Part shown: piece by piece, positions 25,420-33,535 of the stretch
Numbering within the stretch: the first letter of the stretch is position 1
How the letters are laid out: every line of letters begins with the position of its first letter
NCBI RefSeq assembly: GCF_000971195.1
Contig: NZ_BBLZ01000008.1
Coordinates: 99,747-163,746 of the forward strand
DNA: 64,000 nucleotides
From: Demequina soli
GTDB taxonomy: Bacteria; Actinomycetota; Actinomycetes; Actinomycetales; Demequinaceae
Reading direction: 5' to 3'
The notes under the pieces: generated by a model
The model's input: only the letters and a program-made list of their open reading frames with translations
Told to the model about the DNA's origin: nothing
Database searches by the model: none
Made by a program: the position numbers and the translations under genes

Positions 25420-25588
25420 CCGCCCGCGGCGAACGCCGTCGGGACCGCCGCCGGAGGGCGAACGTCACGATTCGGTAACCCGGCTTGCTTTGTTGCGGCG
25501 ACCAACATAATCTCGGGACATCGCGGCGCGTCGAAGCGCTTCGACCGCCCGCCGGCGGCCAGCCGGCACCCGGGACGATGGAGTCGAG
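25420..25588 (+). promoter_or_regulatory. lacI-family gene promoter region
   Basis: Within this 169-base gap TTGCTT (25485-25490) and TAATCT (25508-25513), 17 bases apart, form a plausible sigma-A promoter, with CATAAT (25505-25510) an alternative -10. The regulator's palindromic operator begins 17 bases downstream of the -10, so autorepression is likely. Confidence 0.55.
25530..25545. promoter_or_regulatory. LacI-family operator O1
   Basis: A perfect 16-bp palindrome, GTCGAAGCGCTTCGAC, with the central CG step typical of LacI-family sites, sits between the probable regulator promoter and its start codon. The same 14-bp core TCGAAGCGCTTCGA recurs before the binding-protein gene. Confidence 0.9.
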
Positions 25589-26605
25589 ATGGCGACGATC
25601 GCAGACGTGGCGCAGGCCGCGGGCGTGTCGATCTCGACCGTGTCCTACGCCCTGTCCGGCAAGCGCTCCATCACCGCCGAGACCCGCACCCGCGTGCTCG
25701 CCGCCGCCGATGCGCTGGGCTACCTTCCGCATGCGAGTGCGCGCATGCTCGCCGCGAACCGCTCGCAGATCATCGCGGTGAGCGAGCCCGTGCACGCCGA
25801 CACCGACGACGCCGCGCACATGGCCTTCGCGATGGAGACCACCAAGGTTGCGCGCGCCCACAACTTCGACACCCTCCTGCTGGTCCACGACGACGCGCTC
25901 GAGGGCATGCGCCGCTCGGCCGCCACGCAGCTGGCCGACGGCATCGTCGTGCTCGACGTGGATGTGGACGATGCACGGGTCCCCCTGGCGCGCACCCTCG
26001 CCTGTCCGACGGTCTTCGTGGGCATCCCGGCGGACACCGCGGGCCTCATCTGCGTCGACCTCGACTTCGAGGCGGCGGCGCGCGAGGCGGTCGACCGGCT
26101 CGTCGACGCCGGGCACAGGCAGATCGGCCTCATCTCCCACCGCCCCGAGACCCTCGAGCGCGGCTCCAACTTCCCGCTGCGCTTCCGCGACGCGTTCCTG
26201 GCCCGCTGCGACGAGCGCGGCGTCGCGCACGCGGTGGTCCACCCCAACGGCCACACCGCCGACGGCAGCGTGCGCCGCCTGCTCGAGCGCCTGCCCGACC
26301 TCGACGGCATCGTGCTCAGCACCACGCCCGACGTCGCGTCGTCGCTGTCCGCGATACTCGCGACGCGCGAGCTCGTCGTCCCACGCGACGTGTCGGTGAT
26401 CGCAGCCGGCGTGAGCTTCTCGACCGCGCGGTTCGCCGTGCCGTTCGACACGATGCCGCTCGACGCCCACGCGTCGTGCGCCGCCGCCGTGGACCTCCTC
26501 GTCCAGGCGATCGACGGCGGGGACCGCAGCCCCCGCATCGTCCTCCTCCCACCCGCCTACATCGACCACGGGTCGGTGCTCGCGCGCGCGACACCCCCCG
26601 ACTGA
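25589..26605 (+). CDS. LacI-family transcriptional regulator of the alpha-xyloside operon
   Basis: A 338-residue repressor. Residues 1-55 are the LacI helix-turn-helix and hinge (TIADVAQAAGVSISTVSYALSG, then ARMLAANRS), followed by a periplasmic-binding-protein-like effector domain ending in the usual IVLLPPAYIDHGS. It is expected to release two matching operators (25530 and 26651) on binding a sugar, probably an alpha-xyloside or isoprimeverose-like product given the downstream enzyme. GGAG lies upstream of the ATG. Confidence 0.94.
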   Translation: MATIADVAQAAGVSISTVSYALSGKRSITAETRTRVLAAADALGYLPHASARMLAANRSQIIAVSEPVHADTDDAAHMAFAMETTKVARAHNFDTLLLVHDDALEGMRRSAATQLADGIVVLDVDVDDARVPLARTLACPTVFVGIPADTAGLICVDLDFEAAAREAVDRLVDAGHRQIGLISHRPETLERGSNFPLRFRDAFLARCDERGVAHAVVHPNGHTADGSVRRLLERLPDLDGIVLSTTPDVASSLSAILATRELVVPRDVSVIAAGVSFSTARFAVPFDTMPLDAHASCAAAVDLLVQAIDGGDRSPRIVLLPPAYIDHGSVLARATPPD

Positions 26606-26650
26606 CCCGGGCAGCCGTCACACCCGTGCGGCGACCCACGCGCCCGCATC

Positions 26651-26666
26651 GTCGAAGCGCTTCGAA
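26651..26666. promoter_or_regulatory. LacI-family operator O2
   Basis: GTCGAAGCGCTTCGAA matches operator O1 at 15 of 16 bases (14-bp core TCGAAGCGCTTCGA is perfect). It lies 63 bases before the binding-protein gene. It is flanked by an inverted pair of the recurring word, GCATCGTC (26646-26653) and GACGATGC (26678-26685), which could form a stem over the operator and act as a terminator or barrier after the regulator gene. Confidence 0.88.
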
Positions 26667-26729
26667 AGAGGCGCGGGGACGATGCACCCAGCCGGCCTCC
26701 GGGCCACGACAAGGAAGCAGGAACGGACA

Positions 26730-28055
26730 ATGAAGTACCGCATCACCGCAGCGACCGCCGTGCTCGCCGCCGGCGCGCTCAGCCTGAGCGCATGCTCGTC
26801 CTCGGATGGAGGCTCCACCGACGGGGCGTCCGCGTCCGGCGGCTCGGGCGACTTCTCCGGCCAGACCCTCACCGTCATGCACTACGAGGGCGACGAGTCC
26901 GCGATGGGCAAGGCGTGGAACAAGGCCATCGAGATCTTCGAGAAGGAGACCGGCGCCACCGTCGACCTCCAGAACACCGCGTTCGAGGACCTGAACGCCT
27001 CCGCGCAGCAGCTCTTCGACTCCTCCGACGCGCCCGACGTGTCCGAGTACAACAAGGGCAACGGCACCGCCGGCCAGCTCGCCGCGACCGGCGTGATCCT
27101 GCCGCTCGACGACGCCTACGCGAAGTACGGCTGGGCCGACAAGCTCAGCGCGGGCGTCGACACCATCGCCAAGTACGACGAGAACGGCGTCATGGGCTCG
27201 GGCTCCTGGTACGGCGTCCCGAACTACGGCGAGTTCGTCTTCCTCTACTACAACAAGGACATGTTCGACCAGTACGGCATCGACGTGCCGACGGACGAGG
27301 CGAGCCTCGAGGCCGCGATGCAGACGTTCGTCGACAACGGCGTCACGCCGCTGACCACCTCGGCCCAGGAGTACCCGATGGGCCAGCTCTGGTACCAGCT
27401 CGCGCTGTCCAAGGCCGACCGCCAGTGGGTCAACGACTACCAGCTGTACGAGAACCCCGTGGACTGGTCCGGCACGGAGGTCAGCACCGCGACCGGGACA
27501 CTCGAGGACTGGGTGAGCAAGGGCTACATCAGCAAGGACGCCTCCGGCATGACCGCCGAGGACGCCGGCCTGCAGTTCATCAACGGCGAGTCCCCGATGT
27601 TCTACTCCGGCTCGTGGTGGTACGGCCGCATGCTCAGCGACGTCACCACGTTCGACTTCGGCATCGCCAACTGGCCCGACACCACGCTGACCCCCGGCTC
27701 GGGCGGCAACATCTGGGTGGTCCCCGCCCAGTCGAAGAACCCCGAGCTCGCCGAGAAGTTCATCGACGTCACGATGTACCCCGAGGTCCAGGCGCTGCTC
27801 GGCGAGTCCGGCGGATTGCCCGTCGCCGCCGACACCGCCGACATCACCGACCCGAACGCCAAGCAGCTCATCGACCTGTTCAACGAGGTCAACGACCGCG
27901 ACGGCCTGGCCTTCTACCCCGACTGGCCGACCCCGACCTTCTACGGCGACCTCAACTCCGTCATGCAGAGCATCGTCAACGGCGACGCGACCACGGACGA
28001 GGCCGACGCCCAGCTGAAGGACTACTACGAGAGCTACGTCTCGACCGTCAACTAA
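26730..28055 (+). CDS. ABC sugar-binding lipoprotein (family 1)
   Basis: A 441-residue extracellular solute-binding protein. The signal ends in LSLSAC, giving an acylated Cys, followed by a Ser/Gly linker and a two-lobed binding protein (LTVMHYEGDE at the start; the SBP_bac_1 core ending GNIWVVPAQSKNPELAEKFI). It should capture an oligosaccharide and deliver it to the two permeases that follow. The ATG at 26730 has a purine-rich AAGGAAGCAGGAA upstream. No ATPase gene is present in the operon, so a shared MsiK-type ATPase elsewhere is likely, as is common in actinobacteria. Confidence 0.95.
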   Translation: MKYRITAATAVLAAGALSLSACSSSDGGSTDGASASGGSGDFSGQTLTVMHYEGDESAMGKAWNKAIEIFEKETGATVDLQNTAFEDLNASAQQLFDSSDAPDVSEYNKGNGTAGQLAATGVILPLDDAYAKYGWADKLSAGVDTIAKYDENGVMGSGSWYGVPNYGEFVFLYYNKDMFDQYGIDVPTDEASLEAAMQTFVDNGVTPLTTSAQEYPMGQLWYQLALSKADRQWVNDYQLYENPVDWSGTEVSTATGTLEDWVSKGYISKDASGMTAEDAGLQFINGESPMFYSGSWWYGRMLSDVTTFDFGIANWPDTTLTPGSGGNIWVVPAQSKNPELAEKFIDVTMYPEVQALLGESGGLPVAADTADITDPNAKQLIDLFNEVNDRDGLAFYPDWPTPTFYGDLNSVMQSIVNGDATTDEADAQLKDYYESYVSTVN

Positions 28056-28066
28056 GCCTCGACCAC

Positions 28067-28097
28067 GCGGGGGCCCCGGCCGGCCCGGGGCCCCCGC
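28067..28097 (+). terminator. Intercistronic stem-loop between binding protein and permease
   Basis: A perfect 13-bp stem (GCGGGGGCCCCGG / CCGGGGCCCCCGC) with a 5-base loop lies in the 58-base gap after the binding-protein stop. With no U-run, and transport genes downstream, it is more likely a 3'-end stabiliser or partial terminator that keeps the binding protein in excess than a full stop. Confidence 0.7.
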
Positions 28098-28113
28098 CAG
28101 AGACGGATCCCTC

Positions 28114-29079
28114 ATGACCTCCCTCGCACCCCGCACCCGCCCGCGTCGCACCGACGAACCCGCGCGTATCCCGCAGCGCGACTCCAGCAAGCTCGGCTAC
28201 TGGCTCTACCTCATCCCCGGCACGCTGCTCGTGGGCCTCGTGATCTTCTACCCGATCGTGCGCAACGTGCGCCTGAGCTTCTTCCACTGGCGCGGCGGGC
28301 GCGCCGAGGAGCACTTCGCGGGCCTCGACAACTGGATCGCCCTGGCCTCGGACCACGAGTTCATCCAGTCGTTCAAGAACATCTTCCTCGTCATCATCGC
28401 CATGGTGATCGTGCCCACCCTGCTGGGCCTCATCATCGCGGCGCTGCTCTTCGACGTGGTGGGCCGCCGCTTCGGCGCGCGCCTGTCGAGCTTCCTGCGC
28501 GCCACCTACTACCTCCCGCAGATCCTCCCGATCGCGGTCGCGGGCGTGATGTTCTCCTGGATCCTCAAGCCCAACTCCGACGGCGTGCTCAACCAGTTCC
28601 TGTCTGTCATCACGGGGTCGACCGTCGAGGTCAACTGGCTCGGCGGGCAGTACTCGACCGCCATGGCCTCCGTCATGGTGCTGATGATCTGGATCCAGCT
28701 GGGCTACCCCGTCGTCATCTTCATGGCGGCCCTCCAGCGCGTCGACCCGCAGCTGTACGAGGCCGCCGAGCTCGACGGCGCCAACTGGTACCAGCGCTTC
28801 CGCGCGATCACGCTGCCGATGATCCAGCCCGAGGTGTTCGTGGTCGCGCTGACCACCACCATCGCGGCGCTCAAGGTGTTCGCGCCGGTCTTCATCCTCA
28901 CCAACGGCGGCCCGTCGAAGTCGACCTATGTGCCCTCGTACTACGCGTACGAGGAGTTCATCCGCGGCACCGACAAGGGCTACGCCGCCACGATCGCGTC
29001 GGCCATCACGCTCGTGGTCGTCGTGGTCGCCATCATCTTCATCCGCGTGCAGAACCGCGCCGAGCGCAAGGAGGCGTGA
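28114..29079 (+). CDS. ABC sugar permease, MalF type
   Basis: A 321-residue integral membrane permease with about six helices (first LYLIPGTLLVGLVIFYPIV). The binding-protein-dependent transport motif that contacts the ATPase is in YEAAELDGANWYQRFRAITLP. It forms a heterodimer with the next gene product, which begins 4 bases after this stop. Confidence 0.95.
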   Translation: MTSLAPRTRPRRTDEPARIPQRDSSKLGYWLYLIPGTLLVGLVIFYPIVRNVRLSFFHWRGGRAEEHFAGLDNWIALASDHEFIQSFKNIFLVIIAMVIVPTLLGLIIAALLFDVVGRRFGARLSSFLRATYYLPQILPIAVAGVMFSWILKPNSDGVLNQFLSVITGSTVEVNWLGGQYSTAMASVMVLMIWIQLGYPVVIFMAALQRVDPQLYEAAELDGANWYQRFRAITLPMIQPEVFVVALTTTIAALKVFAPVFILTNGGPSKSTYVPSYYAYEEFIRGTDKGYAATIASAITLVVVVVAIIFIRVQNRAERKEA

Positions 29080-29083
29080 CGCC

Positions 29084-29971
29084 ATGACCGCCGTCGCCCA
29101 GGCCCCCACCCCCGTCGACACCACGGCGCCGACCAAGAACAGGGCACGCCCTCGCACCGCCACCGAGTGGATCCTGCTGATCGCGGCGATCCTCGGCGCC
29201 CTCGCGATCGTGTTCCCGATGCTCCTGCTGCTGCTCAACGCGTTCAAGTCCCCCGCGGACTACGCGAACTCCGGCCCGCTGCAGCTGCCCGAGAAGCTCG
29301 ACCTCACCGGCATCCGCACGTTCTGGGAGACCCAGAACTTCCCGCGCGCGCTGTGGAACTCGGTGTTCATCTCGACGATGGTGTCCCTCATCGCCGTCGT
29401 GGTGTCCGTGCTGAACTCGTTCGCGATCGGCATCGGCCGCGTGCGGGGCCGCACCTGGATCGTGCTCATCTTCCTCATGGCCAACCTGGTCCCGCAGGAG
29501 ATGCTGTTCGACCCGCTGTTCAAGCTCTACGACAAGATCGGCCTGCTCTCCAACCCCTGGTCCGTCATCCTGACGTTCGTGGTGATCCAGTCGGCCTTCG
29601 GCACCTACCTGCTGTCGAGCCTGCTCGGCACGTTCCCCAAGGAGATCCTCGAGGCCGCGTCGGTCGACGGCGCCACCCGCGGGCGCGTGCTGCGCTCGGT
29701 GATCGTTCCGATCCTCCGGCCCACGCTGTCCGTCCTCATGGTGTTCTTCTTCATCTGGACGTGGAACGAGTTCCTGCTGCCGCTGGCGTTCCTCAACACC
29801 TCCGACAGCCTCACGGTGCCGCTGCTGCTCGAGCAGCTCAACGGCGAGCGCCAGACCGACACCACCACCCTGATCGCCGGCACGCTCATCAGCGTGATCC
29901 CCACGATCATCTTCTTCCTCATCTTCCAGCGCACCCTCACGCGCGGCATCACGGCAGGAGCAGTGAAGTGA
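29084..29971 (+). CDS. ABC sugar permease, MalG type
   Basis: A 295-residue permease with about six helices; the EAA loop is LEAASVDGATRGRVLRSVIVP, and the C-terminus ends in the MalG-like FQRTLTRGITAGAVK. ATG 29084 is chosen because the longer frame overlaps the first permease. The stop overlaps the GTG of the alpha-xylosidase gene by 2 bases (GTGAAGTGA context), indicating tight co-translation. Confidence 0.95.
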   Translation: MTAVAQAPTPVDTTAPTKNRARPRTATEWILLIAAILGALAIVFPMLLLLLNAFKSPADYANSGPLQLPEKLDLTGIRTFWETQNFPRALWNSVFISTMVSLIAVVVSVLNSFAIGIGRVRGRTWIVLIFLMANLVPQEMLFDPLFKLYDKIGLLSNPWSVILTFVVIQSAFGTYLLSSLLGTFPKEILEAASVDGATRGRVLRSVIVPILRPTLSVLMVFFFIWTWNEFLLPLAFLNTSDSLTVPLLLEQLNGERQTDTTTLIAGTLISVIPTIIFFLIFQRTLTRGITAGAVK

Positions 29972-32238
29972 AGTTCACCGACGGATTCTGGATGCGCCGG
30001 CCCGGCGTCGACGCGCTCTACGCCGAGGAGGCGTACGACGTCTGGGCCGAGGGCGACACCCTCACCGTCCACGCCCCCACCCGCGTGATCCGCGCCCGCG
30101 GCGACGTGCTCAACCGCGCGATGCTCACGGTCACGCTGAGCTCGCCGCTCGAGGGCGTGGTGCGCGTGCGGATCGACCACCACCAGGGCGCACGGCGCTC
30201 CCCCGGCTTCCGGATGCCGGGCGCCGTCGAGGGCACGGGCGTCGCGGCGGTGGACGATGCGGGGGGCACCCTGACCTCCGGCCGCCTGACTGCGCGGGTC
30301 GCGCAGGGCGCGCCGTGGCGCCTCGACTTCGAGGTCGACGGCGAGCGCATCACCGGGTCGGGCCACCACTCGGTGGGCTACATGACGCTGGCGAAGGACG
30401 CCCCCGTGCCCGCCGAGCCGGCCGGCGTGGCCGGCTACTCCGAGACCGGGCTCGCGCCGCATCGTGCCTACGTCCACGAGCAGCTCGACCTGGGCGTGGG
30501 CGAGACCATCTACGGGCTCGGTGAGCGCTTCGGCCCGTTCGTGAAGAACGGCCAGACCGTGGACATCTGGAACGCCGACGGCGGCACCAGCTCCGAGCAG
30601 TCCTACAAGTCGATCCCGTTCTACCTGTCGTCGCGCGGCTACGGCGTGCTGGTCAACCACCCCGAGCACGTGAGCATCGAGGTGGGCTCCGAGGCCGTCG
30701 AGCGGGTGCAGTTCTCCACCGCGGGCGAGTCGCTCGAGTACCTCGTCTTCGCGGGCCCCACGCCCGCCGAGGCGGTCGAGCGCTACACGGCGCTGCTCGG
30801 CCGCCCGCCGCGCGTGCCCGCGTGGTCCTTCGGCCTGTGGCTGTCGACGTCGTTCACGACGCAGTACGACGAGGCGACGGTCGCATCATTCGTCGACGGC
30901 ATGCGCGAGCGCGACATCCCGCTGTCGGTGTTCCACTACGACTGCTTCTGGATGCGCGAGTTCAACTGGACCGACGGCGTGTGGGACGAGCGGGTGTTCC
31001 CCGACCCCGAGGGCATGCTCGAGCGGATGCACGAGGACAAGGACCTCCACGTGTCGGCGTGGATCAACCCGTACATCGCGCAGCGCGGACGGATGTTCCG
31101 CGAGGGCCTCGAGCACGGCTACCTGGTCAAGCGCCCCGACGGCAGCGTGTGGCAGTGGGACCAGTGGCAGGCGGGCATGGCGCTGGTCGACTTCACCAAC
31201 CCCGCCGCGCGCGCGTGGTTCCAGGACTTCATCCGCGTCCTCGTGCGTCAGGGGGTCGACGCCATCAAGACCGACTTCGGCGAGCGGATCCCGACCGACG
31301 TCGTGTGGCACGACGGCTCGAGCCCCGAGACGATGCACAACCTCTACACGCAGCTCTACAACGAGGCCGTGTGGGAGGCGCTCGTCGAGGAGCGCGGCGA
31401 GGGCGACGCCGTGCTGTTCGCGCGGTCGGCGACCGCGGGGGGCCAGACGATGCCGGTGCACTGGGGCGGCGACAACTCGTCGTCGTACGTGTCGATGGCG
31501 GAGACCCTGCGCGGCGGGCTGTCGCTCATGAGCTCGGGCTTCGGGTACTGGAGCCACGACATCGGCGGCTTCGAGGGCACCCCCGACGCGGGCGTGTTCA
31601 AGCGCTGGCTCGCGTTCGGGCTCATGTCCTCGCACTCGCGCCTGCACGGGTCGAGCTCGTACCGGGTGCCGTGGGCCTTCGACGACGAGGCCGTCGACGT
31701 CGCGCGCACGTTCACGAAGCTCAAGCTGTCGCTCATGCCGTACCTCTACACCGCCTCCGTCGAGACCGCGACCACGGGCGTCCCCATGATGCGGCCGATG
31801 TTCTTGGCCTTCCCCGGCGACCCCGCGACGCAGCACCTGGACCGCCAGTACATGCTCGGCGACTCGCTGCTGGTGGCGCCCGTGATGTCCGAGTCCGGCG
31901 AGGTGTCGCTCTACCTGCCCGAGGGCGAGTGGACGTCGCTGCTCACGGGCGAGCGCGTCGCGGGCGGACGCTGGCGGCGCGAGGTGCACGGCTTCGACTC
32001 GATGCCGCTGTACGTGCGCCCCGGCACCGTGCTCGCGCGCGGCACCCGCGACGACCGCCCGGACTACGACTACCTCGCCGACGTCGAGCTGGTGGTCTAC
32101 CCGGGCGGCCCCGACACGCGCGAGGTCGCCCTGCACGCGTCCGATGGCTCGAGCGACACCGTCACCGTCGTGTCCCGCGACGGCTCGCTCACGGCCACCG
32201 GCGTCTCCGGCCGCGCCTACGCGGTCCGCGAGGCCTGA
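29968..32238 (+). CDS. GH31 alpha-xylosidase (YicI type)
   Basis: A 756-residue glycoside hydrolase family 31 enzyme that releases terminal alpha-xylose. The YicI motifs are almost intact: GLGERFGPFVKNGQ, the nucleophile Asp436 in IKTDFGERIPTDVVWHDGS, the acid/base Asp502 in HWGGDNSSSYVSMAE, and GFGYWSHDIGGFEGT then SSHSRLHGSSSYRVPWAFD. These blocks separate alpha-xylosidases from alpha-glucosidases in the family. There is no signal peptide, so it acts on imported oligosaccharides such as isoprimeverose or xyloglucan fragments. GTG 29968 overlaps the permease stop. GGACGATGCG occurs once at 30252 (Val-Asp-Asp-Ala). Confidence 0.94.
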   Translation: MKFTDGFWMRRPGVDALYAEEAYDVWAEGDTLTVHAPTRVIRARGDVLNRAMLTVTLSSPLEGVVRVRIDHHQGARRSPGFRMPGAVEGTGVAAVDDAGGTLTSGRLTARVAQGAPWRLDFEVDGERITGSGHHSVGYMTLAKDAPVPAEPAGVAGYSETGLAPHRAYVHEQLDLGVGETIYGLGERFGPFVKNGQTVDIWNADGGTSSEQSYKSIPFYLSSRGYGVLVNHPEHVSIEVGSEAVERVQFSTAGESLEYLVFAGPTPAEAVERYTALLGRPPRVPAWSFGLWLSTSFTTQYDEATVASFVDGMRERDIPLSVFHYDCFWMREFNWTDGVWDERVFPDPEGMLERMHEDKDLHVSAWINPYIAQRGRMFREGLEHGYLVKRPDGSVWQWDQWQAGMALVDFTNPAARAWFQDFIRVLVRQGVDAIKTDFGERIPTDVVWHDGSSPETMHNLYTQLYNEAVWEALVEERGEGDAVLFARSATAGGQTMPVHWGGDNSSSYVSMAETLRGGLSLMSSGFGYWSHDIGGFEGTPDAGVFKRWLAFGLMSSHSRLHGSSSYRVPWAFDDEAVDVARTFTKLKLSLMPYLYTASVETATTGVPMMRPMFLAFPGDPATQHLDRQYMLGDSLLVAPVMSESGEVSLYLPEGEWTSLLTGERVAGGRWRREVHGFDSMPLYVRPGTVLARGTRDDRPDYDYLADVELVVYPGGPDTREVALHASDGSSDTVTVVSRDGSLTATGVSGRAYAVREA

Positions 32239-32287
32239 GGACGATGCGGCGGCCGGGTCCCACACCTGCCCGGCCGCCGCATCGTCC
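32239..32287 (+). terminator. Sugar-operon terminator built from an inverted pair of GGACGATGCG
   Basis: A perfect 19-bp stem, GGACGATGCGGCGGCCGGG (32239-32257) pairing with 32269-32287, closes an 11-base loop and begins on the base after the alpha-xylosidase stop. The outer 10 bp of each arm are the recurring word in opposite orientation. Inverted pairs of uptake sequences serve as terminators in Neisseria and Haemophilus. Confidence 0.9.
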
Positions 32288-32317
32288 CGGGGCGCACCGC
32301 GCCGGTAGCCTGAGCCC

Positions 32318-33535
32318 ATGACCTCGGAAGACGCCCCGCAGCTCCGTCCCGACACCCTCGCCGTCCGCGCCGGCCACGTGCGCACGCCGTTCGACGAGAT
32401 GTCCGAGGCGATCTTCATGACGCAGGGGTACGTCTATCCGACGGCTGCCGAGGCGGAGGGCGCGTTCGCGGGCGAGATCGACCGCTACCAGTACTCGCGC
32501 TACGCCAACCCGACGGTGACGATGTTCGAGACGCGCCTCGCCGCGATCGAGGGCGCGGACGACTGCTTCGCGACCGCGACCGGCATGGCGGCCGTGTTCG
32601 TGGCGCTCGCGTCGATCCTGCGCCAGGGCGACCGCCTGGTGGCCTCGCGCGCGCTGTTCGGCACGTCGATCGCGACCTTCGACGACTACTTCGCCGGCTG
32701 GGGCATCCGCGTCGACTACGTCGACGGACACGTCAACGAGGACTGGGACCGCGCGCTCGCGACCCCCGCCACCGCCGTGTTCTGCGAGTCCCCCACCAAC
32801 CCCATGCAGGACGTCGTGGACCTGCGCCACGTCGCGGCGCGCGCCAAGGAGGCCGGCGCGCTGTTCATCGTCGACAACGTGTTCGCGACGCCGCTCGGCC
32901 AGAAGCCGCTCGAGCTCGGCGCCGACGCCGTCGTGTACTCCGCCACCAAGCACATCGACGGTCAGGGCCGCGTCCTCGGCGGTGCGGTGCTCGGCTCGAA
33001 GGAGTACGTGGGCAAGGTGCGCCAGATGGTGCGCACCATGGGCGCGACCATGTCGCCGTTCACCGCGTGGGTGCTCGGCAAGTCGCTCGAGACCCTCGCG
33101 GTGCGCGTCAAGGCGCAGGCGGCCTCCGCGCTCGACCTCGCGCAGTGGCTCGAGGCGCACCCCAAGGTCGCGGTCGCGCGCTACCCGCTGCTGCCGTCGC
33201 ACCCGCAGTACGAGCGCGCGAAGGGCCAGATGACGATGGGCGGCACGCTCGTCACCATCGACATCGCGCTCGACGAGGGCGTCGACCCGCACGGCCCCGA
33301 GGCGAAGGCGGCGACGTTCCGGTTCCTCGACGCGCTGCGCGTCATCGACCTGTCGAACAACCTCGGCGACGCGAAGTCCATCGCGACGCACCCCGCCACG
33401 ACGACCCACCGCAAGCTCGGCGCCGTGCGCCGCGCCGCGGTCGGCATGTGCGAGGCGACCGTGCGGCTGAGCATCGGCCTCGAGGATGTCGAGGACCTCC
33501 GCGAGGACCTCGCCCGCGCGCTCGACGCCATCTGA
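32318..33535 (+). CDS. metZ: O-succinylhomoserine sulfhydrylase MetZ
   Basis: A 405-residue PLP-dependent Cys/Met-metabolism enzyme that makes homocysteine from O-succinylhomoserine and sulfide. Features are TQGYVYPTAAEAEGAF, YSRYANPTVTMFE, ATGMAAVFVAL, and the PLP lysine in YSATKHIDGQGRVLGG, the MetZ form of the motif. TAGCCT (32306-32311) is 6 bases before the ATG, with no ribosome site, so a leaderless message is likely. O-acetylhomoserine use is an alternative. Confidence 0.92.
   Translation: MTSEDAPQLRPDTLAVRAGHVRTPFDEMSEAIFMTQGYVYPTAAEAEGAFAGEIDRYQYSRYANPTVTMFETRLAAIEGADDCFATATGMAAVFVALASILRQGDRLVASRALFGTSIATFDDYFAGWGIRVDYVDGHVNEDWDRALATPATAVFCESPTNPMQDVVDLRHVAARAKEAGALFIVDNVFATPLGQKPLELGADAVVYSATKHIDGQGRVLGGAVLGSKEYVGKVRQMVRTMGATMSPFTAWVLGKSLETLAVRVKAQAASALDLAQWLEAHPKVAVARYPLLPSHPQYERAKGQMTMGGTLVTIDIALDEGVDPHGPEAKAATFRFLDALRVIDLSNNLGDAKSIATHPATTTHRKLGAVRRAAVGMCEATVRLSIGLEDVEDLREDLARALDAI

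Follow-up and report, generated by a model that had tools for sequence, protein, structure and literature searches.

Inverted pairs of an abundant, probably uptake-like DNA word form hairpins at gene 3' ends in Demequina soli

Directly behind the stop codon of a GH31 gene of Demequina soli lies a perfect stem whose two ends carry the same short word in opposite directions. We consider the locus here in a window of 64,000 nucleotides (the whole stretch of DNA that was analysed; 73% GC, in a genome of 3.0 Mb). The features at the locus are as follows.

29968-32238, + strand: GH31 gene (alpha-xylosidase type), directly 5' of the hairpin; gene call with Pfam Glyco_hydro_31 domains
32239-32257, + strand: hairpin 5' arm, with the word GGACGATGCG as its first 10 bases
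32258-32268, + strand: loop, 11 nt
32269-32287, + strand: hairpin 3' arm, with the word's reverse complement as its last 10 bases
32318-33535, + strand: gene for a Cys/Met-metabolism PLP enzyme, beginning 30 nt past the hairpin; gene call, Pfam

An earlier note on this DNA had described a perfect 19-bp stem right after the alpha-xylosidase stop with GGACGATGCGG inverted on its arms, and this is indeed what the sequence contains. The two 19-nt arms are 100% complementary, both arm ends read GGACGATGCGG in opposite directions (at the 3' end as the reverse complement), and the hairpin starts at the first base past the TGA stop, occupying 49 nt of the 79 nt between the GH31 stop and the next gene. 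RNA folding of positions 32225-32310 (86 nt) gives −61.2 kcal/mol (z −6.07), with none of 200 shuffles as low. A U-tract is absent after the hairpin, where the tail reads CGGGGCGCAC, a terminator scan has no entry for it, and Rfam at gathering thresholds returns no match over positions 25500-33000. In all likelihood, the hairpin either terminates transcription of the GH31 operon or stabilizes the 3' end of its mRNA.

The word itself is found throughout the genome, with GGACGATGCG present in 754 + 721 = 1,475 copies against 3 of its reversed control and GGACGATGCGG in 299 + 283 copies against 1, the reversed word being a lenient control since the word outnumbers its reverse in other families of the order too. 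Under a third-order model, 16.3 copies of GGACGATGCG are expected in 1.2 Mb, where 603 were found; among other repeats in the same 1.2 Mb, CCAATGACA has 38 copies and CAATGACAGA 29, with fewer than one expected for each. In a 1.264-Mb sample, with genes assigned by our own gene finder, 440 of 642 copies lie in genes, 196 are intergenic and 6 straddle a boundary, and the word is 3.9 times denser in intergenic than in coding sequence. Inside genes, same-strand copies fall into one frame in 215 of 226 cases, and the codons that spell the word depart strongly from expectation. Asp-Asp-Ala after a G-ending codon is written GAC GAT GCG in 215 of 287 instances (10.4 expected), and the same spelling is raised less when the matching base does not precede it (19 of 144, 5.2 expected); Ala-Ser-Ser after a C-ending codon is written GCA TCG TCC in 130 of 214 (1.0 expected) and, without the matching preceding base, in 4 of 31 (0.14 expected). 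Synonymous codons are thus selected so as to spell the word; something acts on the DNA word itself.

The earlier note had staked its reading on inverted pairs being over-represented, at short distance, near the 3' ends of genes elsewhere in the genome, and such an excess exists. At gaps of 3-33, the D. soli genome holds 34 pairs in which the word precedes its reverse complement (+-), 18 in the opposite order (-+) and 5 on the same strand, where density alone predicts about 7.3 of each; these counts take in either word, and pure GGACGATGCG-N3-33-CGCATCGTCC pairs number 33. A structured null that keeps the word's coding and intergenic densities, and with them its intergenic clustering, leads to the same order: at gaps of 0-40 in 1.264 Mb there are 18 +- pairs versus 4.6 (maximum 12 in 300 simulations), 6 -+ pairs versus 4.6 and 2 same-strand pairs versus 9.3. 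The gaps of the 33 +- pairs are 7-16 (24 pairs) or 28-32 (9 pairs), with none at 17-27, and their interiors form a mean of 1.33 further stem pairs versus 0.59 in shuffled interiors (1 in 2,000). Since 14 of these 33 pairs have no stem past the words, the 19-bp stem at the GH31 locus, with 9 inner pairs among the two longest, is an extreme case.

Placement relative to genes is uneven too. Of 20 intergenic inverted pairs, 12 are no more than 60 nt from a stop codon (5 expected, from 25% of random 38-mers; p 0.001); for single intergenic words the figure is 87 of 154, compared with 27% of random 10-mers. Among 539 hairpins scored in the sample, 128 follow a stop codon and have 10 or more pairs, and 14 of these carry the inverted core ACGATGC (9 +-, 5 -+), which also occurs in 4 of 43 other intergenic hairpins and in 2 of 368 inside genes. 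This count is partly circular, as an inverted word pair already forms a stem, a problem from which the pair nulls are free. The reading of such pairs as uptake-like words that may double as terminators is supported in part: the excess at 3' ends is there, while a run resembling a U-tract (at least four T in the next 8 bases) follows 0 of the 14 word hairpins, compared with 8 of the 114 other post-stop hairpins.

A weaker pair near operator O2 had been offered as a second case.

26644-26685, + strand: core of the word in a weak -+ pair (GCATCGTC ... GACGATGC) that flanks the palindrome GAAGCGCTTC

The palindrome is of the LacI-operator type, and the genes on its two sides encode a LacI-family regulator and a solute-binding protein. 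The two sides (26646-26653 and 26678-26685) are in -+ order and each matches 9 of the 10 letters of the word; positions 26646-26685 pair over 8 bp only, around the palindrome (−28.5 kcal/mol, z −3.71). The -+ order does not rise above the structured null in the 1.264-Mb sample, and we therefore leave this pair as chance. What the earlier note drew on for an uptake-like reading is thus retained as far as the GH31 arrangement and the 3'-end excess in the D. soli genome are concerned, and finds no support at O2.

How far does the word extend beyond D. soli? Among 44 genomes of the same genus, GGACGATGCG exceeds 600 copies in 15, and GGCCGATGCG, a word found through k-mers, exceeds 300 in a further 12 (maximum 1,203); both thresholds are our own. 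A third form, GGCCGATGCYG, reaches 931 copies and is raised in several of the twelve GGCCGATGCG genomes and in some others; GGCCGATGCG and GGCCGATGCYG are both numerous in some genomes. The sister words are one base apart. Eight of the 44 genomes are poor in all three (maxima of 123, 107 and 95 copies), namely G004, G026, G033, G034, G036, G037, G039 and G043, with G012 borderline. The first word was also searched in 184 genomes from the order's remaining families, where it does not exceed 55 copies per strand; the sister words GGCCGATGCG and GGCCGATGCYG were searched within the family. When named genomes were scanned for the paired word, 78 stretches came up, 57 of them from Demequina (14 genomes) and the other 21 scattered. 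The 10-bp word is confined to part of the genus Demequina. Its labels cluster on gene trees of 30 sequences each, needing 6 changes versus 13.6 when shuffled on the alpha-xylosidase tree and 5 versus 13.7 on the ComEC tree, and each label shows more than one gain or loss on both of these single-gene trees.

The order of the pairs recurs across the genus. Of the 27 word-rich genomes, 22 have more +- than -+ pairs, 4 have fewer and one has as many of each (sign test p 0.0005, indicative at most, as the 27 genomes are related). Summed over the 15 GGACGATGCG-rich genomes there are 340 +-, 246 -+ and 400 same-strand pairs (76.5 expected of each), and over the 12 GGCCGATGCG genomes 90, 51 and 71 (about 25.1 expected of each). 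The same-strand excess is led by G021 (113) and G028 (81), where the pairs are probably tandem arrays of the word, with 206 remaining without both. In one GGCCGATGCG genome, G016, inverted pairs were absent from a 400-kb sample, which contained 3 same-strand pairs, and the whole genome gave 10 +-, 9 -+ and 18 same-strand pairs (4.9 expected). In its 5 same-strand pairs D. soli is atypical, many of its word-rich relatives being above chance. Same-strand pairs are in excess across the genus, and part of the word pairing is therefore general clustering.

The GH31 locus itself was compared between species. The GH31 protein was matched in 38 of the 44 genomes, and 30 loci were returned, all of which were read. 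Among the 11 closest loci (at least 85% identity, the window included), nine have the word hairpin, in one case with a single base altered in one of the arms. The two exceptions, G006 and G035, are close relatives and word-rich. In all 19 more distant loci the inverted word pair is absent after the GH31 gene, and in 13 of these a different stem (at least 12 positions, at most one mismatch) lies within 140 nt. The close relatives retain the 9-base core on both arms. In the nine word hairpins the 3'-arm 9-mer GCATCGTCC and the eight outermost pairs are invariant, whereas three of the more inward pairs vary in both partners; the stem covariation score is 0.148 versus 0.071 in shuffled data, with 0 of 500 shuffles as high, and a number of both-side-changing pairs equal to the three observed is reached in 68 of 500. 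Since distant species mostly have another hairpin at this place without the word, the word seems to have been added, within a single clade, to an existing, widespread 3'-end hairpin and to have been conserved in its two arms since.

Computation establishes a strong clade-specific pressure on a DNA word, with sister words, and inverted pairs of it that make 3'-end hairpins. We consider it probable, with moderate confidence, that the word whose inverted pair forms the base of the stem works like a DNA uptake sequence. Known signals of this kind, the DUS and USS, are words of 9-12 bp with about 1,000 or more copies on both strands, as found here (754/721); they form inverted pairs at 3' ends with a +- bias, as in the D. 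soli genome, and have dialects that follow phylogeny, with three forms in the present case and labels clustered on two gene trees. Close pairs on the same strand are rare in such systems and in D. soli, but exceed expectation in the genus as a whole. The data fit a DUS/USS-like uptake signal in an actinobacterium. In such a mechanism, cells would preferentially take up and recombine word-bearing DNA, with the word being read by a putative uptake receptor, which might be one of the minor pilins of type IV pili; this uptake bias would be the pressure on it. The word would then accumulate where it is tolerated, intergenic 3' ends tolerating it best, and two opposite copies would provide a ready-made 3'-end stem, which would be kept and could end or protect transcripts.

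Machinery for DNA import, a further attribute of DUS/USS systems, is encoded but does not discriminate. Of 47 genomes of the family, 46 encode ComEC and 45 encode PilM, so that an import machine may be available in Demequina; both are also found in word-poor genomes (for example G004, G034 and G043), and their presence gives no separation of word-bearing from word-less genomes across the family. The comEC match is split between two frames in G023 (G023:C1:423579-424363; few words) and in G037 (G037:C1:2039413-2040200; poor in all three words), and also in the half-complete G011; as the alpha-xylosidase gene is split in G037 and G011 too, we set these splits aside as possible assembly errors. 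In the mostly open-access literature that was searched, no uptake word is reported for Actinobacteria or Demequina, and the term 'uptake sequence' is absent from the main text of the Micrococcus luteus paper PMC4322843. The fuller proposition, that uptake self-recognition evolved in Demequina independently of the Neisseriaceae and Pasteurellaceae, has at least three dialects and saw its inverted pairs co-opted as 3'-end hairpins, is in our judgement close to evenly balanced, leaning slightly towards true.

Several other explanations have to be weighed against an uptake signal. First of all, the word could be the site of another sequence-specific system, such as self-DNA marking in defence or modification, or a chromosome organizer, with the hairpins following from its sheer abundance. 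We regard this as unlikely, though it is the alternative to be taken most seriously. The drifting specificity of such a system would suit a non-palindromic 10-bp word of about 1,500 copies with sister words at one base distance, the competence genes do not sort the genomes by word, and the close same-strand pairs in the relatives are not explained by hairpins. There is, on the other hand, no evident reason for marking sites to gather at 3' ends or to prefer the +- order. Restriction-type sites, moreover, are usually avoided, whereas this word is driven up against codon usage.

Second, the word could be purely an RNA element of 3' ends, favoured for making good terminator or stabilizer hairpins. 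The enrichment of both single and paired words at 3' ends and the covariation of the stem would be expected of it. Yet most sampled copies (440 of 642) are inside genes and on both strands, which largely refutes this explanation, and of the 196 intergenic copies 32 (+-) and 9 (-+) have an exact inverted partner within 53 nt, rising to 42 and 12 when one mismatch is allowed. The distant relatives, in addition, form their 3'-end hairpin at the GH31 locus without the word. We therefore hold it to be improbable.

Third, a chromosome signal with strand polarity, such as KOPS or a Chi-like site, or a small mobile repeat of the REP/MITE kind would also give many copies spread genome-wide. The strand counts of 99/92, 117/95 and 103/97 in three 400-kb blocks show no skew, no base outside the 10-mer exceeds 60% in 1.2 Mb, so that there is no conserved unit longer than the word, and the gene copies are biased to one frame with synonymous distortion, which together make this very improbable. 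Finally, a chance GC-rich hairpin with a common word by accident, which the plentiful hairpins of a 73% GC genome (368 of the 539 scored lie within genes) might suggest, is scarcely credible against the fold z-score, the recurrence at 9 of the 11 closest loci, where the stem covaries, and the +- excess. The tests of skew, flanks, frame and locus make the pure RNA element, the chromosome signals, the mobile repeat and chance all unlikely.

Should the word indeed be an uptake signal, it would apparently be the first such system outside the Neisseriaceae and Pasteurellaceae, and apparently the first in a one-membrane bacterium, within our searches and general knowledge. As a third, unrelated case with dialects, it would imply that sequence-specific uptake evolves repeatedly; it would supply natural dialect pairs for receptor discovery and a test of whether uptake bias spreads such words. 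The same secondary use as hairpins would also have arisen again, in a GC-rich genome without T-tails.

Among known elements, the GH31 hairpin resembles an intrinsic (Rho-independent) terminator in being a stable GC-rich hairpin directly past the stop codon, and differs from it in that no U-tract is found behind the stem. HIP1 of cyanobacteria is likewise a short word with more than 1,000 copies within a clade, and it is palindromic; the Demequina word is non-palindromic and has sister words in related species.

Sequence-specific DNA uptake is named for two families, the Pasteurellaceae and the Neisseriaceae, in Ambur 2016 (PMC5031613). In Neisseria, inverted DUS pairs are described as acting as terminators, and eight DUS dialects as following phylogeny (Treangen 2008, PMC2397512; Frye 2013, PMC3630211). 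As in the published accounts of the neisserial DUS, the Demequina word has 10 bp and lies on both strands (the DUS in about 1,900 copies) with intergenic enrichment, its inverted pairs lie at 3' ends with +- favoured, and its dialects run along the phylogeny. Unlike Neisseria, the host is a GC-rich actinobacterium and the hairpins have no T-tail. In the counts of Kingsford 2007 (PMC1852404), N. meningitidis Z2491 has 958/934 DUS copies and close pairs of 226 +-, 5 -+ and 0 same-strand, so that its 226:5 contrasts with about 2:1 in D. soli; same-strand close pairs, 0 or 1 in Neisseria as tabulated, number 5 in D. soli and are common in its relatives. The same source places the DUS word in 54-57% of high-confidence Neisseria terminators and the USS in 23% of H. 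influenzae terminators, whereas an inverted pair is in 14 of 128 post-stop hairpins of D. soli, which is counted differently from the 54-57%. It also explains the +- order bias in Neisseria by T-tails; the Demequina pairs form hairpins without them, and hairpin formation is therefore separable from the T-tail explanation as given there.

For the Pasteurellaceae, Table 5 of the same paper (PMC1852404) lists 737/734 USS copies in H. influenzae, with close pairs of 50 +-, 25 -+ and 1 same-strand. The USS differs from the D. soli word in being a 9-bp motif with an AT-rich extension, and the single same-strand pair contrasts with 5 in D. soli and many in its relatives. The copy numbers, on the other hand, are alike (1,471 in H. 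influenzae versus 1,475 in D. soli), and so are the pair orders, 50/25 and 34/18, at different gap limits, the spacing being limited to 10 nt in the H. influenzae count and to 3-33 in ours. With this wider gap allowed, the pair pattern of D. soli is closest to that of H. influenzae.
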